Origin: Candidatus Arsenophonus lipoptenae
GTDB taxonomy: Bacteria > Pseudomonadota > Gammaproteobacteria > Enterobacterales > Enterobacteriaceae
Reading direction: 5' to 3'
DNA length: 64,000 nt
NCBI RefSeq assembly: GCF_001534665.1
Contig: NZ_CP013920.1
Span: forward strand, 694,501-758,500
Each line of letters begins with the position of its first letter. Position 1 is the stretch's first letter. The position numbers and the translations under genes were made by a program. Below are positions 52,735-56,309 of the stretch, in pieces. The notes under the pieces were generated by a model. That model was not told the DNA's origin. It did no database searches and worked only from the letters and a program-made list of their open reading frames with translations.

Positions 52735-52748
52735 TTGTGTTGATTATT

Positions 52749-52801
52749 TGAACAGGTAAAATTCATATATATGAAATTTTGATTATTAGTTTACCTGTTC
52801 A
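52749..52801 (+). terminator. Structured 3' element after hfq
   Basis: A 12-bp perfect outer stem (TGAACAGGTAAA at 52749-52760 with its complement at 52790-52801) encloses a second, perfectly palindromic segment TTCATATATATGAA. It starts 14 bases after the hfq stop. A T7 run appears only about 20 bases further, so it is not a textbook terminator. It could end or stabilise the hfq transcript, since hflX, the next E. coli gene, is missing. Confidence 0.45.
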
Positions 52802-53969
52802 GATTTCTTAAATTTAAGTATTTTTTTACGAAAAAGAAATATTCTTTCATCTATTTTTTGAATAACCTAAAATTTATTTTTTATAATTGATAGTACATTT
52901 TCTCTATAACTTTATTAAAAATAAAAATTAATACTTAAATGATTAATATCTTTATAAAGAAAGACATTTTGTAAATTTATTTTGATATCTAATTAATCTA
53001 TTTTAATTATGTGATATAATAAAAATATATTAAATATTATAAATTATTATAATATAAGTATAATATGTAATGATTTGGTTATTATAAAAAAATTATTGAG
53101 ATATTTAGTATATAAGAGTTTAATGAAATTTGAGATATTTTTCAATATATTAAGTTTTGTATATAATTTAAAAAAAATTATTTTTTTATTTAAAAACTTT
53201 GATAAATAACTTATGCTATGTTTTAGTTAATTTTTAATCAATAAATGAAGTGTTCATAACATATTAAACAATATACATTTAGTTATAATATTAACACAAT
53301 TTATAATTATTTTATAATAAAATTATTAAAAATCCTTAGTATAATATTCTAATATTACTATTAGAATTTTTAATTAAATTTTTACTTGTAATTATATCTT
53401 TAGTATTTTAGATTAAAATTATAAAAATAAGCATAATAATTTTAATTAATTTTAATTAAAATTAATTAAAATTAATTAAAATTCATAATCCATAAATTTC
53501 TAGAAATTTATAATAAATAAATTAATGAATAAATTTAGTTATATTGATTATTAGTATAAAACATTAAATAATCACATAATTATTTTTGTTTATATTTATT
53601 TGTAATATATCAATATATGAATAATTTTTATAATTATTATGAAAACTAACCTAATTTTTATTAAAAAGTTATTTATTCTTAGAATGAAAATATTTCGGTA
53701 ACTAAAATATATGTTTATTTATTAAATTTTATAAATTAAAAATGATCTAAATATAAAAGAAAATTATGGTAAAATCATAATTTATTTAGTATGTTAGTTG
53801 TTAATTTAATAATCTATATTAACTAAAATTATTTATTGAAAATTTTTAATTACATGCATTTTAAACAATTAATTAAAATATAGTAAATTATAAATAAAAT
53901 AAAAAAATTAAGAATAAAGATTATAATTTAAGCGTTTTAGAAATAATTATAACGAATGGGAGCTATAAC
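52802..53969. other. 1.2-kb gap where hflX stood
   Basis: All frames are closed and no HflX GTPase motif can be read. Features seen: a tandem 10-base repeat at 53440-53483 (about four copies of ATTAATTAAA) and a 20-bp palindrome at 53492-53511. Directly before hflK one frame reads KKIKNKDYNLSVLEIII without a stop up to the hflK ATG, a faint echo of the HflX C-terminus. The hflK ribosome site GGGAG is at 53958-53962. Confidence 0.5.
53440..53511. repeat. Tandem 10-mer repeat and adjacent 20-bp palindrome
   Basis: Between 53440 and 53483 the unit ATTAATTAAA repeats about four times; it is also nearly self-complementary. Eight bases later ATAAATTTCTAGAAATTTAT (53492-53511) is a perfect palindrome. 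Both lie in the dead hflX space, and slippage during replication is the simplest origin. Confidence 0.55.
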
Positions 53970-54047
53970 ATGGCGTGGAATCAGCCCGGTAACAACGGAC
54001 AGAACCGCGATCCGTGGGGAAGCAACGATAGTGGCGACTCCAGTGGT
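53970..54047 (+). promoter_or_regulatory. GC-rich island at the hflK 5' end
   Basis: I counted 46 G or C in the 78 bases from the ATG, inside a region otherwise dominated by A/T. The island ends abruptly near codon 26 (after CAGTGGT). It starts near the ribosome site GGGAG. The encoded peptide is conserved, but synonymous positions also resist A/T, for instance AAC AAC, CAG, CGC and CCG. This suggests selection on the nucleotide sequence itself. A 5-bp stem ACGGA/TCCGT is possible; no strong fold is obvious by eye. Confidence 0.6.
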
Positions 54048-55199
54048 AATAAAAGTAATCAAAAAAAGAAACCAAATAATCTTGATGATTTATTCATTAA
54101 GTTAAGTCGCAAAATTATAGATTTAGGTGGTAATTATAAGGGTAAAAATAGCTTTGGCTTTGGTAATCAAAATAATATTAATTTAAATATAAATAACCGT
54201 TTTATATCTTTTATTATTACTTTATTAATAATCGTTTGGTTTATTAGTGGTTTTTATACAATAAAAGAAAGTGATCGTGGTATTGTTTTTTTGTTTGGTA
54301 AATATAGCTATACAGTAGAACCAGGTTTAAATTGGAAACCTACTTTTATTGAAAAAGTAATTTCTGTTAATGTGGAAACTATACGTGAACAAGCTACTAG
54401 TGGCATGATGTTAACTTCTGATGAAAATGTTATTCAAGTGGAAATGAATGTACAGTATCGTGTAACAGATCCTACTTGTTATTTATTTAATGTGACTAAT
54501 CCTAATAATAGTTTACGTCAAGCTATAGATAGTGCAGTGCGCGGAATTATAGGTCAATCAGATATGGAGCAGATATTGACAACAAAGCGTGCTTTTATTC
54601 GAGATGAAACACAAAAAGAACTAGAAAGTACAATAAAACCTTATAATATGGGTATAACAATATTAGATGTTAATTTTCAGGCAGCTCGCCCACCAGAAGC
54701 TGTTAAAGCAGCTTTTGATGATGTGATTGCTGCACGTGAAGAAGAACAAAAAACTATTCGTGAAGCACAAGCTTATCGTAATGAAGTATTGCCATTAGCA
54801 AAAGGTAATGCACAGAAATTAATTGAAGAAGCAATGGCTTATAAGGCAAGTGTAGTTTTTAAAGCAGAAGGTGAGGTCGCTAGTTTTTCTAAGATATTAC
54901 CTGAATATCATGCAGCACCTCAAATTACTTGTGAACGTTTATATATTGAAACTATGGAGAAATTATTAGGTAATACTCGTAAAGTAATTGTGAATGATAA
55001 AAGTAATAGTGTTGTCATATTGCCATTAGAACAAATATTAGATATCAGCAAAAAAAATAAAATTTTAGATGCAAATAAAATAAAAACATCAAAAATTATA
55101 AAAAAATCAGATAAATCTAATGATGCACCTTATTCATATAGTTATGGTACTAGTGATAATGCTCGTAGTAATAGTTCAACTCGTATTGGGAGACAATAA
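53970..55199 (+). CDS. hflK: FtsH-modulating SPFH protein HflK
   Basis: HflK and HflC form a large inner-membrane cage around the FtsH protease and tune its activity. The 409 aa (E. coli 419) begin MAWNQPGNNGQNRDPWGSND, have one membrane helix (about residues 70-92, ending SGFYTIKESDRG), and an SPFH domain with PGLNWKPTFIEKVISVNVE, SGMMLTSDENVIQVEMNVQY and DVNFQAARPPEAVKAAFDDV. The first 78 bases are about 59% G+C, using codons such as GCG, CAG, CCC, CGC and CCG that are rare elsewhere here. The ribosome site GGGAG is strong. It ends 2 bases before hflC. Confidence 0.97.
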   Translation: MAWNQPGNNGQNRDPWGSNDSGDSSGNKSNQKKKPNNLDDLFIKLSRKIIDLGGNYKGKNSFGFGNQNNINLNINNRFISFIITLLIIVWFISGFYTIKESDRGIVFLFGKYSYTVEPGLNWKPTFIEKVISVNVETIREQATSGMMLTSDENVIQVEMNVQYRVTDPTCYLFNVTNPNNSLRQAIDSAVRGIIGQSDMEQILTTKRAFIRDETQKELESTIKPYNMGITILDVNFQAARPPEAVKAAFDDVIAAREEEQKTIREAQAYRNEVLPLAKGNAQKLIEEAMAYKASVVFKAEGEVASFSKILPEYHAAPQITCERLYIETMEKLLGNTRKVIVNDKSNSVVILPLEQILDISKKNKILDANKIKTSKIIKKSDKSNDAPYSYSYGTSDNARSNSSTRIGRQ

Positions 55200-56240: not shown

Positions 56241-56309
56241 TTATTATTACTGAATAACATAGATAAGCCCGCATAACGCGGGCTTATCTATGTTATTCAG
56301 TAATAATAA
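56241..56309. terminator. Perfect 32-bp hairpin between hflC and purA
   Basis: Bases 56241-56272 pair without a single mismatch with 56278-56309 around the five-base loop ATAAC. The top of the stem is GC-rich (AAGCCCGC/GCGGGCTT), like an intrinsic terminator. The lower 24 bp are mixed, including TGAATAACATAGAT. No long T-run follows on either strand. It lies between hflC and purA, where E. coli has yjeT, and probably ends the hfq/hflKC transcript or protects its 3' end. The exact symmetry is striking among eroding DNA. Confidence 0.75.

Follow-up and report, generated by a model that had tools for sequence, protein, structure and literature searches.

Genomic context and composition of the hflK start

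The window analysed here, which is the whole 64-kb stretch of DNA, carries the gene hflK on its forward strand, with hfq located upstream and hflC following it. The beginning of hflK stands out by its base composition and contains a sequence element that is conserved among relatives. The gene and the two parts of this element are as follows.

53970-55199, forward strand: hflK coding sequence, an open reading frame for the 409-aa FtsH protease modulator, with Pfam domains PF12221 (HflK_N) and PF01145 (SPFH/Band 7)
53970-54026, forward strand: core part of the element under synonymous constraint (codons 1-19), as judged from synonymous changes, codon homogeneity and near-identity in hundreds of species
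54027-54047, forward strand: 3ˊ shoulder comprising codons 20-26, with weaker synonymous conservation and an in-frame length that varies among relatives

The preliminary description of this locus had reported a GC-rich island of 46 G/C bases among the 78 at positions 53970-54047, and this count is exact. The A/T-rich character of the surroundings is equally clear, given that the mean GC content of the window is 24%. Its most GC-rich 54-nucleotide segment is found at positions 53969-54022 (61%), the most GC-rich 78-nucleotide segment also starts at 53969 (60%), and the island exceeds the sole tRNA gene in the window in GC content. The enrichment extends to third codon positions, which are G or C in 17 of the first 26 hflK codons (65%) versus 47 of the 383 later codons (12%). 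When Met and Trp codons are set aside, the counts are 14 of 23 and 38 of 374 (Fisher p = 3e-8). The assignment of the island to the first 26 codons holds for composition, whereas strict conservation is confined to approximately nucleotides 1-57 (codons 1-19) and fades by about codon 25.

The genome consists of one 837-kb contig, and the same genus also includes genomes of 2-4 Mb. Loss of hflX had been noted as making a local regulatory role for the island plausible. The gene is indeed absent from this genome by Pfam search, although genomes that have hflX carry the same element, which argues against its loss as the source of such a role. At the expected place of hflX (52735-53969) there is a 1.2-kb AT-rich gap without open reading frames of at least 80 aa. 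The same type of search indicates that hflX is also missing from G004, G005 and G447, all of which retain the hflK element. Further downstream, between hflC and purA, a perfect inverted repeat with 32-bp arms set 5 nt apart occupies positions 56241-56309. Its GC-rich core (AAGCCCGC/GCGGGCTT) has no counterpart elsewhere in the window, and the repeat, which is strikingly long and intact for an AT-rich genome, is perhaps a terminator.

Synonymous conservation among relatives

We gathered hflK genes from nine genomes at the genus level, 159 at the family level and 296 at the order level. Across the family, the gene opens almost uniformly with ATGGCGTGGAATCAGCCCGGTAATAACGGACAGGACCGCGACCCGTGGGGAAGC over its first ~54 nucleotides. 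Almost the same DNA begins each of the seven other hflK genes identified in the genus and recurs across the whole family, which excludes an assembly error as the origin of the island. A search pattern that permitted all synonyms of the start peptide matched 254 of 392 family genomes, and the matches listed correspond to nearly a single DNA sequence. Two loci from one sister family (L049 and L050) have the same start DNA. Farther out, among Vibrio-like, Pasteurella-like and other genomes assigned by sequence only, a similar peptide is encoded with different codons and spacing. The distance from Met1 to the DPWG residues is fixed in 99 of 99 species, whereas for most relatives beyond the family it spans 8-18 residues.

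For 99 higher-GC Enterobacteriaceae, synonymous changes were counted along a phylogeny inferred from the remaining part of hflK. Codons 2-19 have undergone 5.9 changes per codon compared to 24.9 in the gene body (4.2-fold fewer, p = 1e-9), so early codons do not evolve as fast as the remainder, and the proposal that selection acts on the RNA or DNA gains strong support. The values are 3-8 changes for codons 20-25 and mostly 9-35 from codon 26 onward. Among 101 higher-GC family members, codon homogeneity reaches 0.84 over codons 2-18 but only 0.52 past codon 60, and the homogeneity excess of the start (0.38) is greater than that of the best 12-codon window past codon 30 (0.18). Moreover, codon choice is specific to the site, with Gly7 encoded by GGT and Gly10 by GGA. 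The similarity to E. coli DNA stated in the preliminary description is also borne out. Within E. coli, the first 84 nucleotides of hflK are identical in 5,385 of 5,395 matching genomes. For a mid-gene stretch of equal length, 186 genomes are identical to the reference used for the start, whose allele is rare at that place, and 5,203 fall at 95-99%.

In one relative (L136, genome G420), the hflK frame is apparently shifted near codon 20, just after the conserved stretch, where a G run has one base fewer. Either a sequencing error or a disrupted gene is possible in this case.

Persistence in AT-rich symbionts

Approximately 50 nucleotides of the hflK start are nearly unchanged in three AT-rich symbionts, namely the present organism (G000), G004, and G447 from another genus. 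We scored wobble retention at sites with a G- or C-ending family consensus codon and an unchanged residue. In G000, 9 of 10 such wobble bases are kept within hflK codons 1-26, as opposed to 26 of 184 at other reading-frame starts (p = 7e-7) and about 10% away from gene starts. The corresponding values for G004 are 10 of 11 and 6 of 40 (p = 6e-6). These counts agree with the earlier view that C and G have been retained at synonymous positions against mutation pressure. G447 retains the same ~52 nucleotides, with a third-position GC content of 46% in codons 1-26 and 7% thereafter. The HflK protein of G000 resembles its counterpart in a 3.6-Mb relative (80.5%) more than that in G004 (74.3%), and thus the AT shifts of G000 and G004 look independent. 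In addition, each of the three symbionts has different changes within the stretch, which argues against one recent import. Both the peptide and the DNA of the hflK start are gone in many more reduced genomes.

Together, the comparative data strongly support purifying selection on the RNA or DNA of the hflK start rather than on the peptide alone, and such selection would be the reason why these codons are fixed against AT mutation pressure.

Comparison with other gene starts

As background, we used the 64-kb window and, from up to 19 relatives, three neighbourhoods of 20 kb each, which by our reading include about 44 real genes once antisense open frames are discounted. Conserved gene starts are common in this set, and hflK, although not alone, stands at the upper end of the range. 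By start excess it ranks second (0.427) to atpH (0.508), and when the gene body is subtracted the two are tied for first (0.31 and 0.32, respectively). Other starts with family-wide conservation, in addition to atpH (L277, 0.51), are those of ftsZ (L256, 0.39), hfq (L233, 0.34) and purA (L233, 0.33), and these four are mostly decayed in G000 where they can be tested. L233 also includes a stretch of strong internal synonymous conservation in relatives (excess 0.35) at codons 171-183 of miaA (frame p2_2456). This stretch is possibly a promoter for the downstream hfq gene, since hfq promoters have been reported thereabouts.

A suggested hairpin at the start codon

The consensus minimum free energy structure of the conserved stretch suggests the following feature.

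53969-54016, forward strand: suggested hairpin enclosing the start codon, from the consensus minimum free energy fold

In this model, the region from base −1 to nucleotide 9 pairs with nucleotides 36-47, and an inner stem (17-19/27-29) carries the loop GUAAUAA. Wobble sites predicted to be unpaired have changed more often than paired ones (MWU p = 0.011), and the relation between wobble changes and pairing probability is weak (Spearman 0.47, p = 0.067). No covariation was observed for the hairpin in the higher-GC set, where the pairs are near-invariant with too few changes to test, and the observed pairing equals the expectation under independence. In most species, the native sequence gains no folding stability over its synonymous alternatives (E. 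coli z = +0.75), and the stability of the window fold relative to shuffled sequences is ordinary (z = −0.43). Searches with Rfam yielded no match in the island of this window, nor any close to the start of the gene in a relative. Among the roles initially listed for the island, one at the start of translation fits best, although the structure itself is suggested rather than established.

Several other structural possibilities were rejected. A stable hairpin judged by folding energy is unsupported, as the energies are ordinary, and an alternative hairpin (18-21/35-38) has support no better than that for the model above. A likeness to the SRP RNA loop was dropped for want of an Rfam match and because the base concerned, nucleotide 33, ranks second in variability among the wobble sites.

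A candidate CsrA operator

Previous work on E. coli describes binding of CsrA to hflK RNA spanning −86 to +48 with a Kd of 55 nM and several CsrA per RNA, elevated HflK in a csrA mutant, and repression of HflK by CsrA (PMC10277598). GGA sites were assigned there at −65, −32, −11, +7 and +27. Those at +7 and +27 fall within the island, and that at −11 falls within the conserved Shine-Dalgarno sequence. The corresponding sites in the window, numbered with the A of the start codon as +1, are listed here.

53959-53961, forward strand: Shine-Dalgarno GGA, predicted CsrA site (E. coli −11); a GGA at −16 to −5 is present in 99 of 99 species
53977-53979, forward strand: GGA of codons 3-4, predicted CsrA site at +8 (E. 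coli +7), in 98 of 99 species
53997-53999, forward strand: GGA of codon 10 (ANGGA context), predicted CsrA site at +28 (E. coli +27), in 92 of 99 species
54018-54020, forward strand: GGA of codon 17 (G GGA), a weaker candidate, in 59 of 99 species

The triplet across codons 3-4 would be fixed in any case by the Trp and Asn codons. At codon 10, by comparison, GGA is used in 92 of 99 species but makes up just 7.3% of the Gly codons of the gene body, and the ANGGA context is present in 89 of 99 species. The GGA triplets at 53977-53979 and 53997-53999 are spaced from the Shine-Dalgarno GGA at distances that a CsrA dimer could bridge, and the codon-17 triplet lies past the +48 end of the RNA tested in E. 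coli. The csrA gene is intact in G000 (best E-value 3.2e-26) and in G004, and it is present in all of the genus genomes G000-G007.

CsrA binding in E. coli, the retention of GGA triplets and an intact csrA gene make an operator in the Shine-Dalgarno and early codons the best explanation for the conserved element. On balance, we therefore lean toward the view that the hflK start is a translational operator within the early coding region that is bound by CsrA. The operator would begin at the Shine-Dalgarno sequence and extend to around codon 19, with the island as its coding half and three close GGA sites (Shine-Dalgarno, +8 and +28), probably set in a fold around the start codon. Presumably, CsrA bound to this region would block ribosome loading and keep HflK and HflC low until CsrA is titrated away. 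The suggested hairpin would account for wobble bases that GGA triplets leave unexplained. We infer that this symbiont uses the same operator, that most of the constraint stems from CsrA and that the hairpin forms.

Several observations count against this proposal. GGA motifs need not fix every wobble base, such as those of CAG at codon 5, GAC at codon 12 and CGC at codon 13. The −65 and −32 sites of E. coli sit in poorly conserved sequence, the +28 GGA is partly paired in the predicted fold, and the individual GGA sites were not mutated in the E. coli study (PMC10277598). Furthermore, genomes lacking csrA that keep at least eight residues of the peptide have a retention excess of 0.16-0.36, which for the four usable cases is not clearly different from the range of −0.29 to 0.67 in genomes with csrA. 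The Rfam model for CsrB has no match in any of the eight genomes searched in the genus (G000-G007), including those of 2-4 Mb, and thus the derepression circuit may differ here.

The element resembles the E. coli operator in gene, position, the Shine-Dalgarno, +7 and +27 GGA triplets and the presence of csrA. It differs in that the −65 and −32 sites lie in non-conserved sequence and the operator here is predicted from sequence. The sections of the E. coli report at hand make no mention of synonymous conservation at the hflK start (PMC10277598). Operators that extend into early coding sequence are among the CsrA targets from CLIP-seq (PMC5694010, abstract), and compared to these the coding half at hflK is unusually deep in synonymous conservation, which covers ~55 nucleotides.

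Alternative explanations

An RNA element with another partner, either a start-codon hairpin or a site for a different protein or RNA, might be the main cause of the constraint, with CsrA secondary. We regard this as possible but rather unlikely. In its favour, almost all wobble bases are fixed, beyond the GGA triplets, the unpaired wobble sites change more as described above, and the element survives where CsrB is not detected. The lack of covariation among so few changes, the ordinary fold stability and the missing Rfam family argue against it, as does the fact that no partner is known. Nothing was found in support of the Hfq, ProQ or small-RNA site that had been suggested, and CsrA, which is the likelier partner, was not among the initial candidates. 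Slightly more doubtful still is the specific version wherein a family-wide structured mRNA element of ~55 nucleotides is needed in its entirety for control of HflK translation through a partner other than CsrA, and is still required in symbionts of 0.65-0.85 Mb.

It is improbable that the conservation reflects a general property of gene starts, such as a low mutation rate or initiation-friendly codons, with no specific element. Low synonymous rates at gene starts are widespread and partly mutational, and 5ˊ regions of AT-rich genomes often have raised third-position GC content (PMC12725619), features which hflK shares; the conserved starts of atpH, ftsZ, hfq and purA among the ~44 genes point the same way. 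In contrast to generic 5ˊ ends, which are usually AT-rich, the constraint at hflK is much stronger, extends to codons 19-25 and is GC-rich. It also ranks at or near the top of the sample and is kept in symbionts whose other starts have lost G/C wobble bases (ftsZ 3 of 13 and purA 1 of 14). Constraint by the protein alone, whereby the HflK_N peptide sets the sequence and Gly, Pro, Arg and Trp codons supply the GC content, is hardly credible. The MAWN-PG...DPWG peptide is conserved far outside the family, where other codons encode it, it is spanned by a Pfam domain, and its amino-acid content does lift GC. However, this reading is already contradicted by the synonymous data, including the nearly single DNA sequence recovered with the synonym-tolerant pattern, the site-specific Gly codons and the raised third-position GC content itself. 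A DNA signal such as an internal promoter or protein site, an overlapping frame, or a recent GC-rich transfer could each fix wobble bases, but this group is very improbable. The internal promoter raised in the preliminary description finds no promoter-like match inside the island, and matches around it are as numerous as expected by chance. Changes at the variable nucleotides 33 and 51 would alter the +2 product, a stop codon closes the +3 frame at nucleotides 21-23, and the differences among the three symbionts oppose a recent transfer.

Concluding remarks

The hflK start element is real and under selection, and it is probably regulatory. CsrA control of hflK is already known in E. coli. A literature search on hflK combined with synonymous conservation, sRNA, Hfq or CLIP revealed no description of such an element, and the near-invariance of its coding part across the family and its survival in AT-rich symbionts were not found in the open papers searched, although earlier notice is possible. 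The hflK start offers an exact target for gauging what share of the constraint is due to a CsrA operator, and it indicates that RNA signals may hide beneath conserved protein starts. Because three separate symbionts with tiny genomes keep the site, translational control of FtsH-HflKC would appear to be worth retaining after most regulation has been lost.
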